NCBI GenBank assembly: GCA_025057615.1
Contig: JANXBF010000004.1
Coordinates: forward strand, 1-61,325
Direction of reading: 5' to 3'
Origin: Candidatus Calescibacterium sp.
GTDB lineage: Bacteria; DRYD01
Length of the DNA: 61,325 nt
This document shows positions 10,101 through 18,755 of this stretch, piece by piece. Position 1 is the first letter of the stretch. Each line of letters starts with the position of its first letter. The notes below the pieces were generated by a model. It searched no databases, was not told the origin of the DNA, and saw only the letters and a program-made list of their open reading frames with translations. The translations under genes and the position numbers were made by a program.

Positions 10101-10270
10101 TTTCATCACCTCCCATAAATTTATTAATATAAATTTTTCTGGATTTGTTAAAAAAAGGTTACAAAAATTGAAAAATAATAGAGCTAAACAATATAAATTT
10201 TAAAATAAAAAAATATAAAAATAAAAGGATGTTTTTGTAAAAAAGAGAACTATTATAAGGTAAGGAAAGG

Positions 10271-10342
10271 GGGCCGCTAGCTCAGTGGAAGAGCACTTGC
10301 CTTTTAAGCAAGGGGTCCTAGGTTCGATTCCTTGGCGGCCCA
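10271..10342 (+). tRNA. tRNA-Lys (anticodon TTT)
   Basis: The cloverleaf reads cleanly: acceptor GGGCCGC/GCGGCCC, D arm GCTC/GAGC, anticodon stem CTTGC/GCAAG with loop CTTTTAA, T loop TTCGATT, discriminator A. CCA is not encoded. The T stem CTAGG/CCTTG has one T-T mismatch (10319 against 10333), which is unusual. The tRNA is followed at once by a sugar permease gene with no SD. Confidence 0.95.
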
Positions 10343-10349
10343 CTTTTGA

Positions 10350-11090
10350 ACTATCTTACCAAAAATTATAGCCTCCGCTTCCCTCCTCTTTGTTTCTTTT
10401 CTCTTTCTTCACCCCCTCTTTTTTGTTTTTTTTCTTTCCTTAAAAGATAACCCAATTTTTAATTATCAAATTGTTCTTAATAATTATAACTTTCTTTTGT
10501 ATATAATTAACAGTTTATTTGTTTCCGTTGTTGGTGCTTCTATAACTGTCATTGTATGTCTATTATCCGCTTACTTCTTTTATAAATCCAAGTCTATTTT
10601 TTCAAAAATTCTGTTGACTATTGTAATTGTTTCTTTTCTCTTTCCACAGGAATCAAAGGTTATATTTAATTTTGTGGTAATAAAACAGTTTGGTTTGATG
10701 GATAGCTTATGGGCTGTATTCTTGCCTTTTATCTCCAATTTGTTTACTCTTTTACTATTTATTCAAGCTTTTAGATTCTATTCTTCAGAAATAGATGATT
10801 ATACTGAACTTGAAGGATTTAACATTTTTCAGAAGATTTTTTTTGTTCAGATACCAATCTTGAAAAATTACTGTTTAACAGCATTTTTTACAAATTTTTT
10901 GAATTTATGGAATGATTTTCTTTGGCCACTGATAGTTCTACAGACTGATAAAAAATATACCGTTCAGGTTGGAATAAATTACATTTCTAAATCTTTAATA
11001 TTTGAACCCACATATTTTGCTGCTGCTATTACAATATCAATAATTGTTCCAATTACAATTTTTGTCTTTTTTCAGAAATATTTTAATTAA
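10350..11090 (+). CDS. MalG-type ABC sugar permease, N-terminus hidden by a possible frame break
   Basis: This is an inner-membrane permease of the carbohydrate-uptake ABC family (MalG/UgpE side). The track ORF begins at TTG 10497, but the frame is open back to 10350 and encodes the missing first helix (ILPKIIASASLLFVSF..) ending in the family's SLK. The EAA loop is ..ELEGFNIFQKIFFVQIP and FLNLWNDFLWPLIVL is typical. No ATG, GTG or TTG occurs in frame before 10497. TTG 10346, four bases after tRNA-Lys, would give MNYLTKIIAS... if the A5 run at 10361-10365 were A4. The C-terminus also stops a few residues early (no GLTxGAVK tail). The pyrimidine-rich DNA at 10371-10442 is explained by TM1 codons. 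Its MalF-like partner is at 56.6 kb; no ATPase or binding protein is nearby. Confidence 0.75.
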   Translation, partial: TILPKIIASASLLFVSFLFLHPLFFVFFLSLKDNPIFNYQIVLNNYNFLLYIINSLFVSVVGASITVIVCLLSAYFFYKSKSIFSKILLTIVIVSFLFPQESKVIFNFVVIKQFGLMDSLWAVFLPFISNLFTLLLFIQAFRFYSSEIDDYTELEGFNIFQKIFFVQIPILKNYCLTAFFTNFLNLWNDFLWPLIVLQTDKKYTVQVGINYISKSLIFEPTYFAAAITISIIVPITIFVFFQKYFN

Positions 11091-11132
11091 CTGAAGGGTA
11101 TTTAACTGGTTATTGTAAAATAAAATATTAGG

Positions 11133-13259
11133 ATGGATAAAGCCTATGAATTATATAATCAACTGTTAGCAAAGTTGAAATCTTATGGTTTAAATTGTTC
11201 TCTGGTCGATAAAGCCTTCAATTTTGCGAATAATTGTCATAAGGGACAGAAAAGGGTTTCCGGGGAACCTTATATAATTCACCCTATCGAAGTTGCCATT
11301 ATCCTTTCTGAATACTATATGGATGAAGTTACTATTTCTTCCGCCTTATTACATGATGTTGTTGAGGATACATCTGTAAAAGTGGAAGATATATACAGAG
11401 AATTTGGGTCAGAAGTTGGATTTATAGTTGAAAGTTTGACCAAACTTCAAAAAATAACACCATTTATAGATATTAGTTTGTCAAACAGTAAAAATAGGGA
11501 AATAACCCTTTTGAACCTCAAGAGACTTTTTGTAAGCACTTCAAAAGATATAAGAGTTGTAATAATAAAACTTGCTGACAGACTCCATAACTTGAGAACT
11601 ATCAAATATCTCAGTGCTGATAAGCAAAAAAGAATAGCTCTTGAAACTCTGGAATTCTATGTTCCCATAGCTCAAAAACTTGGAATTTGGAAAATCAAAT
11701 CAGAAATGGAAGACCTTTCTTTTATGATCTATGATATACATACCTACAACATGATAAAATCTTATATAGAAGAAACCCGAAAAAAGATAGAACAAAATTA
11801 TCAAGAGATTATAAGAATACTCAAGAATAAACTAGATGAGGAAAAGATAGAATCTACAATACAAAGCCGGATAAAAACTGTATATAGTATATACAATAAA
11901 ATGACTAAAAGAGGAGTTCCTCTAAATGAAATAATGGACATCGGTGCTATAAGGGTTATTGTTAATACTGTTAATGAATGTTATCTTGTACTTGGTATGA
12001 TTCATAATTTGTGGATGCCTATCCAAGATAGGATAAAAGACTATATTGCTAAACCAAAACCTAATGGTTATCAGTCTCTCCATACTGTTGTATACAATGA
12101 ATACCCTGTGGAATTTCAGATAAGAACTTGGAATATGCACTATGCTTCTGAATTCGGCGTTGCTTCACATTGGAAATATAAAGGGATATCATCATGGGGA
12201 GAAATAGAAAAAATAATAAACAACTGGAAAAGGGAATTGGAGGGTATAGAAAATATTAAACCTGAAAATATTCAAGAAGAAGTGTTATCTGAAAACATAT
12301 ATGTTTTAACTCCCAAAGGGGATTGTATCGATTTACCAATTGAATCAACACCTATAGATTTTGCCTACAAGATACATACTGAAATTGGTAACAAGTGTTC
12401 AGCTTGCAAGGTTAATGGAAGGATAGTTCCCTTGGACTATAAACTGAAAAATGGAGATATTGTTGAAATTGTGGTTTCAAAAAACGCATCACCAACCCTT
12501 GAGTGGCTGAAAATTGCTAAAACAAGCTATGCCAGAACAAGAATTAAGCAGTTCCTAAAAAATAAGAACAAAAAAGAGTATATTCAAAAAGCTCATGAAT
12601 TATTTGCAAATATTATAAAAACTCTTAAAGAAAATAAAATAAATAAAGATAACATAGATATTAACAGTTTAATAATGGAAATTTTTGAAAAGTACTACAA
12701 AAATGCTTATAAAGAAGTAGAAGACTTTATACTTGCCATAGGTGCAGGTGATGTAAAATCTGAATCTATTGAATCAAAGATCAAACACATTCTTTATGAA
12801 CGGAAAGTTAGTAAAGTAGAGAATATTGTACAACAAGAAAACAACAGTATAGTATTGGGAGGGGGAATACTTTATAAGTTTGCAAAATGTTGTAAACCTG
12901 TTTTCCCACAACCAATAGTAGGGTATATTACCAGAGGTAACGGTATATCAGTTCATAACCAGAGCTGTGAAAACATAAAAAATTTAAATGGCCAGATTAT
13001 AGGTTTAAAATGGGAAGATATTAAAGATAAAAAACCTCTTTCTTTACAAATTTTAGCTTCTGATAAAAAAGGTCTTTTGCAAGAGATATTGAAAATAATT
13101 TCATTGAGTGCTGTTAATATAACAAGTATGGAAGCAAATGTGTCTAATGGAAAAGCTCAAATAAATATAGTTCTTGATATACCAAAGAATATGGATGTTG
13201 AAAAATTGAAAATAAATCTTCTAAAAAAAGTTCCAAATATAATTGATATCAAACACTAA
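11133..13259 (+). CDS. relA: bifunctional (p)ppGpp synthetase/hydrolase (RelA/SpoT family)
   Basis: A long RSH protein that makes and degrades (p)ppGpp in the stringent response. Domain order in 708 residues: HD hydrolase (about 30-190) with the intact HDVVEDT motif near 73, so hydrolase activity is expected; synthetase (about 235-355) with DIGAIRVIV and KPKPNGYQSLH near 304; TGS (about 395-460); a conserved-cysteine domain with KFAKCCKPV; and a C-terminal ACT domain. There is no good SD: the ATG is preceded by TAAAAT and six bases, so a leaderless message is possible. It stands 42 bp after the permease gene. Confidence 0.96.
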   Translation: MDKAYELYNQLLAKLKSYGLNCSLVDKAFNFANNCHKGQKRVSGEPYIIHPIEVAIILSEYYMDEVTISSALLHDVVEDTSVKVEDIYREFGSEVGFIVESLTKLQKITPFIDISLSNSKNREITLLNLKRLFVSTSKDIRVVIIKLADRLHNLRTIKYLSADKQKRIALETLEFYVPIAQKLGIWKIKSEMEDLSFMIYDIHTYNMIKSYIEETRKKIEQNYQEIIRILKNKLDEEKIESTIQSRIKTVYSIYNKMTKRGVPLNEIMDIGAIRVIVNTVNECYLVLGMIHNLWMPIQDRIKDYIAKPKPNGYQSLHTVVYNEYPVEFQIRTWNMHYASEFGVASHWKYKGISSWGEIEKIINNWKRELEGIENIKPENIQEEVLSENIYVLTPKGDCIDLPIESTPIDFAYKIHTEIGNKCSACKVNGRIVPLDYKLKNGDIVEIVVSKNASPTLEWLKIAKTSYARTRIKQFLKNKNKKEYIQKAHELFANIIKTLKENKINKDNIDINSLIMEIFEKYYKNAYKEVEDFILAIGAGDVKSESIESKIKHILYERKVSKVENIVQQENNSIVLGGGILYKFAKCCKPVFPQPIVGYITRGNGISVHNQSCENIKNLNGQIIGLKWEDIKDKKPLSLQILASDKKGLLQEILKIISLSAVNITSMEANVSNGKAQINIVLDIPKNMDVEKLKINLLKKVPNIIDIKH

Positions 13260-13314
13260 GAATTTAAGATAAAGATTCAATGAATTTATTTCTGTTTGGA
13301 ATGAGAATCGTCAT

Positions 13315-14568
13315 ATGAAAATGGAAGTATCAAGAGAAAGAAAAAAAGGTAAAGTATACAACTATATTGCTTATGATGAAAGCGGTGTAAGGTATGCTGG
13401 TTTAATCGAAGCTTATTCTGAAAAAGAAGCAGAACGTATTCTGAGAGGTGGAGGATACAGAAAGATAAGAATAAAAGAACTCAGTAGATGGCAATATAAT
13501 TTCATATCCATTTTTGTTAGGTTATCCTATCAGGAGGTTATGTTATTTACTAGACAGGTTGCTGAAATGCTTAAAGCTGGTTTTCCAATTGCGAGGTTAT
13601 TTGATGTTATTGCTCTATCTACTTCAAACAAAAAATTGGCTCTTATTTGTTTGGTTATAAAAGAAAATTTGAAATCTGGTAATGCTATAAGTACTGCTTT
13701 ACAAAGATACACAGATATATTTAATCCTGTTTATATTGGTTTAGTCAGAATAGGAGAGAAAACTGGTCAGCTTTTTGATATTATGGAAGAACTGGCAAAG
13801 TACCTTGAAGAAGAGCATAAAGTCAGATCTAAACTTATTTCCTCATTAATATATCCAATTTTTGTTCTGCTTATCACATTTCTCATAGTTTGGGGACTGA
13901 TTGTGTTTATCTTTCCAAAATTATTTGAAGTACTTCAGGGGTTTGATGTTCCAATTCCTTTACTTACACAAATTCTATTAAAGATTTCTGAAATATTATC
14001 CAATCCATTAATTTTGGGGTTAGGTTTTAGTGTGATTTTTATTACTTCTTTATTTTTTAGATTTTTTTCAGAGCTGTCCCCTCAATATAAAATATTGGTA
14101 GAAAAAATAATTTTTTCGATACCATATATTGGATATATAATGTTCAAAATATATGAGTTAAGATTTGCAAGAGCATTGCTGTTGGTTTTAAGAAGTGGTA
14201 TGTCTTTTCTTGAGGGTATGCGAAATTTGGAACAATCGTTTGATAGCGGAATTATGAAAGATGTTGCAATAAGGTTGCAAAGATATTTAAAGGAAGGAGA
14301 ATACTTGACTAATTCTCTTTATAAAGTAAAGTTTTTCTCTCCTTTTTTTATTAATATGATTAAAACGGGAGAAGAAACAGGAGAACTTGAAACTATGCTT
14401 GATAAAATTTGTCAAAACCTAGAATTTGAAATAAAAACCAAAATAGAAGCTTTATTGTCAGCATTTGAACCTGCATTGGTTGTTTTTTTAGGAATTATTG
14501 TTGGAATAATTCTATTTGCCGTGTTTTTACCAATTGCAAGTATAATAGGAACGGTGACAAAATATTAG
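13315..14568 (+). CDS. pilC: type II secretion/type IV pilus inner-membrane protein PilC (GspF family)
   Basis: PilC is the polytopic platform protein around which the pilus or pseudopilus is assembled. The 417-residue product has an N-terminal cytoplasmic region, then two T2SSF domains (about 70-195 and 275-400), each with the ..FxRQxAxMLxAGxP.. / ..MIKTGEETGELE.. signatures, and three long hydrophobic helices. No SD is evident. No pilB or pilT ATPase is adjacent; a pseudopilin gene lies at 50.3 kb, so the pilus or competence machinery is dispersed in this genome. Confidence 0.9.
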   Translation: MKMEVSRERKKGKVYNYIAYDESGVRYAGLIEAYSEKEAERILRGGGYRKIRIKELSRWQYNFISIFVRLSYQEVMLFTRQVAEMLKAGFPIARLFDVIALSTSNKKLALICLVIKENLKSGNAISTALQRYTDIFNPVYIGLVRIGEKTGQLFDIMEELAKYLEEEHKVRSKLISSLIYPIFVLLITFLIVWGLIVFIFPKLFEVLQGFDVPIPLLTQILLKISEILSNPLILGLGFSVIFITSLFFRFFSELSPQYKILVEKIIFSIPYIGYIMFKIYELRFARALLLVLRSGMSFLEGMRNLEQSFDSGIMKDVAIRLQRYLKEGEYLTNSLYKVKFFSPFFINMIKTGEETGELETMLDKICQNLEFEIKTKIEALLSAFEPALVVFLGIIVGIILFAVFLPIASIIGTVTKY

Positions 14569-14608
14569 GAAGGATTAAAATAAATATTTAATGAATTCTT
14601 ATCTTAGG

Positions 14609-14680
14609 GGCGACGTAGCCAAGTGGCAAGGCAGGGGCCTGCAAAGCCTTGATTCCCGGGTTCGAATCCCGGCGTCGCCT
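14609..14680 (+). tRNA. tRNA-Cys (anticodon GCA)
   Basis: Acceptor GGCGACG/CGTCGCC, D stem GCC/GGC, anticodon stem GGGGC/GCCTT (two G-T pairs) with loop CTGCAAA, T arm CCGGG-TTCGAAT-CCCGG and discriminator T, the normal base for tRNA-Cys. CCA is not encoded. The track's protease ORF is drawn through this tRNA by mistake; the real protease start follows the tRNA. Confidence 0.96.
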
Positions 14681-14692
14681 GAATTTTATCAA

Positions 14693-15706
14693 GTGCTTAA
14701 TAGAATAGTAATTGCATTATTGCTAATTGTTATAATTATTCAGCAGTTAGTTATTAATACAAACTCTCAAAAAGCTTATTCTGAACACGAGAGAATGGTT
14801 ATAGATGCTATAGAAAAGGTAAAAAAGTCCGTGGTTAGGATAGATGCCTGGTCTTCTGAAGGTAAACCCAAGGAACTTGGATCTGGAGTTGTTTTTACAC
14901 CCAATGGACACATAATCACTAATGCTCATGTTATAAAGGATACTGAAACTATTAATGTTACTTTCTTTGATGGGAAAAAAAAGGTTGGAATACTTATAGA
15001 TTACTCTGATCAATATGATATTGCTGTTTTAAAAGTTGATCCCACAGGTTTAACAATAGTTCCAGCTGAATTTGGTGATGCTAATAAACTCAGACTTGGA
15101 CAGACTGTCGTTGCAGTTGGTAATCCTCTTAACTTTGGATGGACTTGCACTATAGGTATAGTAAGTGGTCTTAATAGAAACATAAGGGCTGATAATAGAA
15201 TATATGAGGGTTTAATTCAGACAGATGCTGCCATAAATAGAGGCAATTCAGGAGGAGCTCTGATAAATTTAGCAGGCCAAGTAATCGGTATAAACACTCT
15301 TGTTTATAGAGGTAAAAGTGGGGCAGAGGGAATGGGATTTGCTATAACCTCAAACAAAGCTCGCTATGTCGCAAATGATATGCTAAAGGGAAGAGTTCTT
15401 GTTCCTCAGAGAGCTTGGATAGGAATTGAACCAATAGAGATAACTCCTCAATTAGCTGAAAAATACGCTTTACCTGTAAATTATGGAATATATGTTAAAG
15501 CTGTTGTTCCTGATGGACCCGCCGATAGATATGGAATAATACCAGGAGATATAATAACTAAACTTGATGATAAGATTGTTGATAGTATTGCTAAATTTAA
15601 TATGATGATAGAATCTAAAAAGCCCGGAGATTTCATTAAGGTTACTGTCTATTCAAATAACGTTGTGAAAGTTATAAATGTCAAGCTTGATTTTAGAAGC
15701 AGATAA
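14693..15706 (+). CDS. membrane-anchored HtrA/Deg-type serine protease
   Basis: A periplasmic or extracytoplasmic quality-control protease. From GTG 14693 it is about 337 residues: an N-terminal signal anchor (RIVIALLLIVIII), a trypsin-like domain with His in NAHVIK (near 79), Asp in YDIAVLKV (near 109) and Ser in NRGNSGGAL (near 186), then one PDZ domain. The track start at 14591 cannot be right because it translates tRNA-Cys. GTG 14693 is the first in-frame start after the tRNA, only 12 nt from its 3' end and without an SD. Single-PDZ architecture is DegS/HtrA-like. It is followed 15 bp later by nuoA. Confidence 0.9.
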   Translation: MLNRIVIALLLIVIIIQQLVINTNSQKAYSEHERMVIDAIEKVKKSVVRIDAWSSEGKPKELGSGVVFTPNGHIITNAHVIKDTETINVTFFDGKKKVGILIDYSDQYDIAVLKVDPTGLTIVPAEFGDANKLRLGQTVVAVGNPLNFGWTCTIGIVSGLNRNIRADNRIYEGLIQTDAAINRGNSGGALINLAGQVIGINTLVYRGKSGAEGMGFAITSNKARYVANDMLKGRVLVPQRAWIGIEPIEITPQLAEKYALPVNYGIYVKAVVPDGPADRYGIIPGDIITKLDDKIVDSIAKFNMMIESKKPGDFIKVTVYSNNVVKVINVKLDFRSR

Positions 15707-15721
15707 GGAGGGTAATATAAT

Positions 15722-16120
15722 ATGTTGATTCAAATGAATTTTGCCTATTTTTTCATCTTTTTTGTCACCTTTGTGGCAGTTGTTTTTGCTCTTGTTAATC
15801 TTATTATTCCTTTAATTTTGGCTCCAAAAGATTGGGAAGAAAAGGATCAGAGACTTCGTATGTTTAAATTTTGGAGGAATTTTCCCTATGAATCTGGCGA
15901 GATTAACCCTATACCTGCCAGATTTCAATACAATATTCACTACTATATGTATGCCATTCTGTTTGTTATATTTGATATCGAGGTGTTATTTTTTATTCCC
16001 TGGGTTGTTACTCTTCAACAAATTGGTTGGATAACTTTAGTAGAGATGATAATATTCGTCTTAATTTTGTTAGTGGGATTATACTATGCTATTGCTAAAG
16101 ATGGGCTGAAGTGGAGGTGA
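15722..16120 (+). CDS. nuoA: NADH-quinone oxidoreductase subunit A
   Basis: NuoA is a small membrane subunit at the interface of the peripheral and membrane arms of complex I. The 132-residue protein has three transmembrane helices and the conserved loop around [18 protein letters not shown] and [11 protein letters not shown]. The SD AAGGAGGG is 9 nt upstream. nuoB follows after 5 bp. The other complex I genes are missing here; instead a broken subtilase gene follows nuoB. Confidence 0.94.
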
Positions 16121-16125
16121 TTTTT

Positions 16126-16722
16126 GTGGGTTTTGATATTAAGAGCAGATCTGAGTTACCTATTCCATCCAGTGGTATAGAGGTTGTTCCTAAACTGAGA
16201 AGGTTACCAGCTTTGAAGGAATTTTCTATAAAGGATAAGGTTCCTGTTTATTTGGAGTCCTTGCCAGGTGGACAGCTCATTATTACAAAGGTTGATGATA
16301 TTTTGAAATGGTCAAGGTCAGGTTCTCTATGGTATTTGCTATTTGGTTTGGCTTGCTGTGCTATAGAGATGATGGCTACTGGTGCTTCAAGATTTGATTT
16401 TGAAAGGCTTGGCATGCCTTTCAGAGCCTCTCCTCGTCAATCTGACCTGATGATCCTTGCAGGAACAATAACATGGAAGATGGCTCCTAGAGTTAGATTA
16501 TTATACGAGCAAATGCCACATCCGAAATATGTCATTGCTATGGGAACCTGTACTATAAGAGGTGGCCCTTATGTTTATCAATGTTACTCTGTTTTACCTG
16601 GTGCTGATGTGATTGTTCCTGTTGATGTTTACGTTCCCGGGTGTCCTCCAAGACCTGAAGCTCTTCTTCATGGATGTATGGTTTTACAAGAAAAAATCAG
16701 AGCAGGTAATTATTCTAAGTAA
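16126..16722 (+). CDS. nuoB: NADH-quinone oxidoreductase subunit B
   Basis: NuoB carries the terminal [4Fe-4S] cluster N2 that reduces quinone. Ligands are visible: the tandem cysteines in [26 protein letters not shown] and [14 protein letters not shown]. The product is about 198 residues. GGAGGTG at 16113-16119 points to GTG 16126 rather than the track's GTG 16111, which would overlap nuoA. The N-terminus is somewhat longer than in E. coli. nuoC, which normally follows, is absent; the next DNA is a subtilase remnant. Confidence 0.94.
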
Positions 16723-16767
16723 TTTGTAATTTTTATAAAACTTTTTACATATTTTTTACATAATACC

Positions 16768-17896
16768 TTAGATAAAATTAATCTGTCGAATGCAAATAAA
16801 AAGGGACTTAAAATATTTAGGGATGATGAAATAAGATCTATATTACCCGATGAAATCAATGGTCTTTCTCAAAAGATAAATGTTCCTGAAAAGAATGTTA
16901 ATCTAAATATTACGGGTATTGACAAGTTACATAAAGAAGGAATAACAGGTAAGGATGTTGTTATTGCCATACTTGATTCAGGGGTTTATAATCATGAGGA
17001 CCTTGGTGATAGGATAACTCTATTCTCTGATGAAACTGGTTCAAATGAAAATAATCCTCATGATAGAAGCGGACATGGAACTCATGTTGCTACCATTGCT
17101 GCTGGGAAGGGTAAATTTATAGGAGTTGCTCCTGATGCTGAAATATGGGCTTTTAAAGTTCTAAACGATGATGGTAAAGGAAGTATATCAAAATGTTATA
17201 AAGGCGATTAACAAAATAGTTGATAAGGCAAAAGGAATGGATAAGAAAGTGGTTGTTAATATGAGTTTGGGTGGCCCAGCTACTAAACCTTGGGACCAAG
17301 ATCCATTGTGTATAGCTATTCATAATGCCATTAAAGAAGGAATATACTTCGTTGTTGCAGCTGGTAACAGTGGTCCAAAGGAGGGAACTGTAGCTACACC
17401 GGGAATAACTCCTGATGTTATAACTGTTGCTTCTTATGATGATAAAAAAACTGAGGATTTGAAAGATGATGATATTGCTATAAGTTCCTCAAGGGGGCCA
17501 GTTTTAAATGCACCCGATGATAATTCCAAAATTAAACCTGATATAGCCATATCTGGTGTAAGAATATGGGCAGCAAATTCTCCTGGAAGCAGGATAGATA
17601 AGCAAGCGGATTTGGGTTTGGTACCCCGTACGGCCGATAAAAAATACGTTGCTTTGTCTGGTACTTCTATGGCTGCTCCAGCTATATCGGGAATAGTTGC
17701 TCTGATTTTACAAGTCAACCCTTCTTTAAAACCCCATGAAGTTAAGAAAATAATAATTGAAAATGGAATACCTCTAAATAAGAAAGACCCAACCGATGGT
17801 AAACCATATGATAAATATGATCAGGGTTCAGGATTAATTAATGCTTATCAAGCTGTAAAAAAAGCCTCTAAAATTATGAACACTAAAAAGTATTGA
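16768..17896 (+). pseudogene. subtilisin-like serine protease, 5'-truncated and frameshifted
   Basis: Two frames together encode one S8 subtilase. The first (to TAA 17209) has the end of a propeptide, catalytic Asp in AILDSGV and His in RSGHGTHVA; the second (track ORF 17168-17896) has AAGNSGP and the catalytic Ser in SGTSMAAPA. They join at the A4 run 17190-17193: deleting one A restores GKGSISNVIKAINK without a gap. The upstream part contains no ATG, GTG or TTG in frame and lacks the signal peptide and most of the propeptide, and it begins right after nuoB. All catalytic residues survive, so decay is recent, or one lesion is a sequencing error or a slippage site. Confidence 0.85.
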
Positions 17897-18001
17897 ATAT
17901 ATGCCTGCTTATAATAACAAACGTAAAAAAATTATAATAAAAAATGTTATTAAAAAATTAAAGAAGGATAATTGGTATGGATTAGAGAAATTTATATATG
18001 A

Positions 18002-18074
18002 TCCAGCGTAGCTCAGGTGGTAGAGCAGGTGCCTGTTAAGCACCGGGTCGCAGGTTCGAGTCCTGCCGCTGGAG
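18002..18074 (+). tRNA. tRNA-Asn (anticodon GTT)
   Basis: Acceptor TCCAGCG/CGCTGGA, D arm GCTC/GAGC, anticodon stem GGTGC/GCACC with loop CTGTTAA, T arm GCAGG-TTCGAGT-CCTGC and discriminator G. All stems pair fully. CCA is not encoded. The gmk start codon lies 24 nt downstream. Confidence 0.96.
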
Positions 18075-18098
18075 CTCCTTAACCTATATCATACTCAT

Positions 18099-18755
18099 AT
18101 GCAAGAACTAATAGACTTCTTTGAAACATTTAAATTTAATATAACGATTAAGGGACACATATTTGTAATTTCAGGTTTCTCAGGTGTTGGTAAGGGAACC
18201 GTTATAAAAGAATTGTTAAAACGCAATCCAAATATGTATTTTTCTGTATCTTACACCACACGTCATAGAAGACATAATGAAGAAGACGGTGTAGATTATC
18301 ACTTTGTAGATAAAGAAACCTTTAAAAAAATGATACTCAATGACGAATTCTTAGAGTGGGCAATAGTTAACGGTAATTTTTATGGAACTCCCAAAAGTAT
18401 TACTATATCCAAAATAGAGAAAAACATAGATGTTATACTTGATATTGATGTTAAAGGAGCTATACAAGTTAAAAGTAAATTACCAAACTTAACTACTCTT
18501 ATATATATTATCCCTCCAACTGGTAAGGAGCTTCTTAATAGATTGTATAAAAGAAATACTGAAAATATTCATGAAATTGCAACAAGGATAACAACTTCAT
18601 TAATAGAGATTAATTATATTAACGCTTATGATTACATAGTTGTTAACGATGAATTAGAAAGATGTATAGATGATGTGGAACAGATTTTAAAGGTTCAAAA
18701 AATGAGTTCTAAAGTTCAATTTCTATCAATAACCGCTAGCAAGGAAGCGGAATAA
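18099..18755 (+). CDS. gmk: guanylate kinase
   Basis: Gmk phosphorylates GMP (dGMP) to the diphosphate with ATP. The 218-residue protein has the P-loop GFSGVGKGT near residue 28, the GMP-binding SVSYTTRHRR and DGVDYHFV segments, and the lid IYIIPPTGKELLNRLYKR. It carries about 16 extra residues before the usual start; ATG 18099 is the first ATG after tRNA-Asn and has no SD. rpoZ follows, the standard gmk-rpoZ pairing. Confidence 0.95.
   Translation: MQELIDFFETFKFNITIKGHIFVISGFSGVGKGTVIKELLKRNPNMYFSVSYTTRHRRHNEEDGVDYHFVDKETFKKMILNDEFLEWAIVNGNFYGTPKSITISKIEKNIDVILDIDVKGAIQVKSKLPNLTTLIYIIPPTGKELLNRLYKRNTENIHEIATRITTSLIEINYINAYDYIVVNDELERCIDDVEQILKVQKMSSKVQFLSITASKEAE

Follow-up and report, generated by a model that had tools for sequence, protein, structure and literature searches.

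Protein genes lacking a Shine–Dalgarno sequence lie directly behind tRNAs and other stable RNAs in a family of uncultured bacteria

Introduction

How does a ribosome find the start of a protein gene that begins a few nucleotides after a tRNA and carries no Shine–Dalgarno (SD) sequence? The question is raised by a stretch of 61,325 nt from Candidatus Calescibacterium sp. (contig JANXBF010000004.1 of assembly GCA_025057615.1, our contig C44), referred to here as the window. Within it, the genes for tRNA-Lys, tRNA-Cys and tRNA-Asn are each followed on the same strand by such a protein gene, encoding an ABC transporter permease, HtrA and guanylate kinase (gmk) respectively. A preliminary description of this DNA had proposed that excision of the tRNA leaves each mRNA with a very short leader or none, and that the arrangement might be systematic. 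Our analysis of this genome and its relatives makes it reasonably probable that genes of this kind are carried on mRNAs headed by a stable RNA, processed to messages with leaders of about 10 nt, and read without an SD.

Results and discussion

Most tRNAs of the genus directly precede a protein gene

The window belongs to a 1.40 Mb metagenome-assembled genome (MAG) of 91 contigs that is 83.7% complete (G000), and the lineage is uncultured and known solely from such assemblies. Six genomes make up the family examined. G000 to G003 represent one genus (g1), and G004 and G005 are family-level relatives (sister genus g2); G006 is a relative at the level of order. G001, G005 and G006 were available as partial samples. 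Below the order-level relative, the matches in the genome collection drop directly to those of the same domain, which suggests that these organisms constitute a group of their own at phylum level. As controls, the highest-scoring tRNA matches from about 30 unrelated genomes were taken (107 tRNAs, 44 of them followed by another tRNA). A tRNA was considered linked when a same-strand start lies no more than 35 nt downstream, with start codons assigned from comparative evidence; the count for G000 additionally requires that the protein be found at that tRNA in another family genome.

By this definition 24 of the 37 tRNAs of G000 are linked, 19 of them through leaders of 15 nt or less. Linked tRNAs number 11/11 in G001, 30/41 in G002 and 31/40 in G003, which brings the pooled count for the genus to 96/129, and the g2 genomes follow with 21/42 (G004) and 12/29 (G005). 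A coding sequence (CDS) starts within the same distance of 12/107 tRNAs in the unrelated control genomes (p is about 8e-10 for G000, 5e-13 for G002, 3e-14 for G003 and 1e-6 for G004). When open reading frame (ORF) length of at least 90 amino acids is the sole requirement, 21/37 tRNAs of G000 qualify; this differs from the 12/107 controls with p = 1e-7, and from the 63 control tRNAs that are not followed by another tRNA with p = 1.4e-4. If the same ORF rule is applied to both sides and unclustered controls are used, the pooled genus yields 84/129 against 12/63 (p = 1e-9). The adjacency of tRNAs and protein genes is not due to chance. The same-order genome G006 resembles the controls, with 4/20 linked tRNAs, and among the genomes examined the trait is limited to this family. 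The idea that other tRNAs of this genome and its relatives would behave like the three in the window, which the preliminary description had offered as the test of its proposal, is therefore borne out. The remaining tRNAs of G000 face convergent genes, or precede genes that are distant or carry an SD, such as the one 80 nt behind tRNA-Val(CAC), which has a strong SD.

Partners identified through Pfam include dnaA, infA (IF-1), topA, transketolase, a gatC-like gene, accA (43 nt) and a pseudouridine synthase, as well as ybaB, a T2SSE ATPase, DUF503, UPF0102, CDGSH and aminotransferases. Nineteen tRNAs are linked in both genera; 9 have the same partner, among them tRNA-Cys with htrA, tRNA-Asp with infA and tRNA-Leu(GAG) with an aminotransferase; for the other 10 the partner differs or has no match. 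The dnaA gene, for example, follows different tRNAs in the two genera, tRNA-Arg(CCT) in one and tRNA-Pro(CGG) in the other. Pairs have therefore been both inherited and newly formed.

Most linked genes lack a strong SD, and their short leaders cluster near 10 nt

A strong SD (E ≤ -6) is present in 3 of the 24 linked genes of G000, compared with 38% (taking the longest-ORF start) to 57% (taking the best early start) of 415 other genes from 20 stretches and the window. The contrast in SD strength first noticed among the genes of the window is thus upheld genome-wide.

One could attribute this pattern to genome streamlining alone, whereby deletions have pushed tRNAs against the next gene, which would then be translated poorly or by a generic SD-independent route unconnected with RNA processing. 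The genome is indeed compact, with many CDS–CDS gaps shorter than 15 nt, and a sizeable share of the other genes also lack a strong SD. However, CDS–CDS junctions with gaps of 0–15 nt (n = 92) retain an SD in 43–65% of cases. Since junctions that are equally small keep their SDs, compaction alone fails to explain the missing ones behind tRNAs, and chance compaction as the sole cause was rejected. Streamlining would likewise not account for the length peak and the base composition of the leaders described below, for the presence of dnaA, infA, topA, gmk and accA among the linked genes, or for the lack of the pattern in the same-order genome. We consider this explanation distinctly unlikely.

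The trait is strongest in genus g1, where 76 leaders measure 15 nt or less. Their mode is 10 nt, and 54 of the 76 fall at 9–12 nt. At positions -1 to -6 these leaders contain 1–5% G, as opposed to 12–21% upstream of other genes, and leaders behind tRNAs are enriched in C relative to other upstream regions. Between G000 and G002 the leaders are 43% identical (35% is expected by chance), and the median length is 10 nt in both genomes; the sequence of the leader drifts while its length and composition are held. Spacing is looser in sister genus g2, with a median leader of 14 nt. The leader that had been predicted to remain after tRNA excision would accordingly be short but not of zero length.

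These measurements depend on the start codons. If the starts had been misassigned, the true ones might lie further downstream and bear SDs; starts called from sequence are uncertain, and GTG and TTG are among them. However, for 23 partners the orthologue in G002 lies at the same tRNA, and 22 of these pairs align from within the first five residues, while the leaders in front of them are nearly unconserved. The alignment of the N-termini therefore indicates that the proposed starts are real, and misassignment is largely refuted and very improbable as a general explanation.

Lack of a strong SD also extends to some genes that lie further from their tRNA. In G004, gmk (225 nt from the tRNA) and a bifunctional-nuclease gene (123 nt) are both without a strong SD. 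We also considered whether every SD-less gene might be translated in a leaderless manner. A search of 45 SD-less genes preceded by intergenic sequence, whose starts are uncertain, gave this idea no support: no clear -10 box was found at a fixed distance upstream.

Other stable RNAs are arranged in the same manner

The arrangement had originally been described for tRNAs, for which it holds, and it proves to be wider. On contig C11 of G000, an ORF of about 460 amino acids starts with TTG 5 nt past the CCA of the tmRNA (L240:2452-2797), and another starts with GTG 14 nt downstream of the 5S rRNA (L247:3964-4080); neither ORF has an SD. RNase P RNA also runs into an SD-less ORF. In the four genomes of the genus (L402, L403, L405 and L371), the ORF next to this RNA is conserved as I-[ST]-D-P-H-x-H-P and is headed by AUA or AUC, with no canonical start at that place and an in-frame ATG inside the RNA; whether translation starts at the AUA or AUC is uncertain. 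In G004, RNase P RNA is followed within a few tens of nucleotides by a K+ transporter gene.

A proposed processing route to short-leader messages

Neither a promoter nor a terminator would fit into a leader of about 10 nt, so the linked genes are most readily understood as being transcribed through the stable RNA. In the reading that we favour, a single transcript from one promoter would carry a stable, structured RNA (in most cases one tRNA) together with the protein gene downstream of it. RNase P would cut the 5′ end of the tRNA. The 3′ side would be released by an endonuclease, the most likely candidate being not tRNase Z but RNase E/G, cutting within the unstructured A/T/C leader. The product would be a monophosphorylated mRNA whose leader, at about 10 nt or less, is too short for an SD, and translation would proceed by SD-independent initiation close to the 5′ end, as in leaderless messages.

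Part of the machinery for such a route is evident. RNase P RNA (RF00010) was detected in 6/6 family genomes with E values of about 4e-66 or better, and RNase E/G is encoded in all of them. In E. coli, tRNA precursors are matured by RNase E, which gains direct entry through single-stranded segments next to them (PMC3985628). The preliminary description had the cut made at the 3′ end of the tRNA; the presence of RNase P RNA and RNase E/G agrees with excision, whereas an enzyme that cuts at the exact end was not identified.

Several observations weigh against this reading. No convincing match to TIGR02651 and no HxHGDH motif of tRNase Z was found in the six family genomes, all of which are MAGs of 71–90% completeness, so that the absence of the enzyme is inferred. 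The RNase Z motif is missing from three weak TIGR02651 matches, two of which resemble hydrolases of the glyoxalase-II type; a match in G006 was rejected because it carries HNHLDH, unlike RNase Z. With canonical tRNase Z undetected, it was set aside as the 3′ cutter, and the cut must therefore come from another nuclease. The few encoded CCAs (4/37 tRNAs of G000), together with the seeming lack of tRNase Z, likewise imply another enzyme for 3′ maturation. E. coli RNase E favours sites with G nearby, and the leaders here are nearly free of G. TATAAT-like hexamers (at least 5/6 matches) occur at -27 to -6 of 62% of G000 tRNAs, compared with 19% further upstream and 44% in shuffled sequences; this speaks for promoters ahead of the tRNAs, though the enrichment is modest for so AT-rich a genome. 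Some linked genes have leaders of 20–35 nt, and the ybaB gene behind tRNA-Ser(GCT) has a genuine SD in a gap of 20 nt. Finally, a true leaderless system would have no need of a sharp peak at 10 nt, which hints at selection on length beyond that imposed by cutting.

This last point bears on a different reading, in which the folded stable RNA stays attached to the message and serves as a landing element for the ribosome, the spacer of about 10 nt acting as a ruler that selects the start codon. The stable RNA would then sit at the mRNA exit of the 30S subunit, in the usual place of the SD helix. Such geometry fits the retention of the 10 nt peak despite turnover of leader sequence, and also the position of the GGAGG core of ordinary genes, which mostly begins at -14 to -11, where the tRNA ends in linked genes. 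Likely non-canonical starts at this distance, AUC or AUU for the permease and AUU for a MarR-type gene of G002, point the same way. Nevertheless, tRNAs must be excised to function, which should make the uncut form transient; the mechanism has no known bacterial precedent; and sister genus g2 tolerates looser spacing. We judge it unlikely that the attached RNA is the active form. A broader proposal covers both states of the RNA: the upstream structured RNA, or its processed 5′ end, might replace the SD helix, with distance (about 10 nt) and not sequence setting initiation. Non-canonical codons at that position (AUC or AUU after tRNAs, possibly AUA or AUC after RNase P RNA) could then serve as starts, and most stable RNAs would double as 5′ elements of mRNAs. 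We offer this proposal tentatively, as possible though doubtful.

Relation to known systems

The processing route that we favour recalls the tRNA punctuation of mitochondria, which is usually viewed as a peculiarity of very compact organelle genomes. Mitochondrial mRNAs have little or no leader (0–3 nt). In these organelles tRNAs delimit the mRNAs, and RNase P and RNase Z free both from polycistronic transcripts (PMC4394434). As in mitochondria, protein genes directly behind same-strand tRNAs are the rule in the genus (96/129 versus 12/107 controls), and RNase P is present. On the favoured reading, the 5′ end of the mRNA would be made by processing of a stable RNA. In contrast to mitochondria, leaders are about 10 nt long, canonical RNase Z was not found, SD-dependent translation coexists, and the organism is a free-living bacterium with seemingly separate units of one stable RNA and a gene or operon. 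Because canonical RNase Z was not detected here and the leaders are not near zero, the system resembles punctuation in its working yet falls outside that class.

Mixed tRNA–mRNA operons of E. coli, such as secG-leuU and thrU...tufB, occur sporadically, and their gaps are larger or the gene order is reversed. They are similar in that tRNA and mRNA share a transcript, as would be so here, and in that the tRNA is processed by RNase P and RNase E (PMC3985628). They differ in that about three-quarters of the tRNAs examined in our genus stand directly before a protein start, nearly always without an SD. A literature search that lacked most subscription papers returned no report of a genome-wide bacterial tRNA–mRNA arrangement of this kind.

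The AUU start of E. coli infC, which has an SD and is autoregulated, offers a parallel for near-cognate initiation; the AUC and AUU codons described here differ in being SD-less and at a fixed position close to a stable RNA. SD-less translation from AUG, GUG and UUG is also known from the leaderless mRNAs of actinobacteria, among them Propionibacterium acnes, a species that, like this family, has no obvious tRNase Z. In P. acnes these start with AUG (68%), GUG (29%) or UUG (3%), and their 5′ end is the transcription start (PMC3848588), whereas here it would come from stable-RNA processing. How near the 5′ end lies to the start codon, a distance of about 5 nt or less in leaderless mRNAs, depends on the site of the cut within the leader of about 10 nt.

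If the favoured reading is correct, the logic of punctuation has arisen independently in bacteria, on most tRNAs and on tmRNA, 5S rRNA and RNase P RNA, and stable-RNA maturation is tied directly to synthesis of core proteins (dnaA, infA, topA, gmk and accA). It also renders testable how ribosomes find starts on short-leader messages without an SD, and how CCA-less tRNAs are matured at the 3′ end where tRNase Z seems to be missing.

The three loci of the window

All features at the three loci are on the forward strand, and all three tRNAs are real, being recognized by both ARAGORN and Rfam; ARAGORN places their ends one base further on than given here. The gene for tRNA-Cys(GCA) (14609–14680) is separated by a 12 nt leader without an SD (14681–14692) from the GTG start of htrA (14693–15706), which Pfam identifies as a trypsin-like protease with a PDZ domain. 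This start had been correctly placed 12 nt past the discriminator of the tRNA. An alternative htrA start at the ATG at 14591, reading through the tRNA, was rejected, as that frame is broken in L031–L034. The pair is kept in four relatives, with leaders of 9–12 nt where measured, and htrA is followed by nuoA and nuoB in an operon-like run that it heads.

At the third locus, tRNA-Asn(GTT) (18002–18074) and a 24 nt leader without an SD (18075–18098) precede the ATG of gmk (18099–18755, guanylate kinase by Pfam), again as first described. The pair is kept in G003 (24 nt), L033 and G002 (35 nt), and separated by the longer gap noted above in G004. Between these two loci, a forward-strand subtilase gene (Peptidase_S8) at 16735–17896 is split over two overlapping frames, from about 16735 to 17209 and from 17168 to 17896, owing either to a frameshift in the gene or to misassembly.

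The first locus comprises tRNA-Lys(TTT), whose CCA is not encoded (10271–10342), a 10 nt leader without an SD (10343–10352) recognized from the sequence and comparison with relatives, and the permease gene (BPD_transp_1, 10353–11090). A possible -10 element, TATAAG, can be read upstream of the tRNA at 10254–10259; the evidence for this single site is weak.

Probable non-canonical start codons

The permease had been given a possible start 4 nt after the tRNA, at a TTG that proves to be out of frame. A TGA precedes the open frame of the permease, in which the first ATG, GTG or TTG is the TTG at 10497; initiation there would cost the protein its first transmembrane segment (TM1). Exactly 10 nt past the tRNA-Lys discriminator there is an in-frame AUC in both G000 and G003, and an AUU at the same distance in G002, where the arrangement is otherwise the same. 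The likely start is the AUC at 10353. It is preferred over an AUU at 10365 because the latter lacks conservation, G003 having GTT in its place, and because the sequence just ahead of it differs from G002 by a 1 nt indel. In sister genus g2 the orthologue begins with a conventional ATG, and the distance to the tRNA is 72 nt. The MarR-type gene of G002, behind tRNA-Ala(GGC), similarly lacks a canonical start in the vicinity and carries an AUU exactly 10 nt after the tRNA.

Two other tRNAs, together with tRNA-Lys(TTT) and its AUC, are probable further linked cases in G000. Behind tRNA-Gln (L028), the linked gene has an ATG at 9 nt, and an in-frame TAA where G002 has a tyrosine codon. Behind tRNA-Trp (L015 in G000 and L315 in G003), an ATG at 8 nt is followed by a T10 run that shifts the frame by one; T11 in its place would restore the frame, and transcriptional slippage at this run is possible.

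A separate case is tRNA-Ser(TGA) (L029 and L236), behind which a conserved short ORF (HFPFPL..IPLV...) begins 1 nt past the discriminator and overlaps the encoded CCA. It has no canonical start nearby in either genome, and its frame is open through the tRNA.

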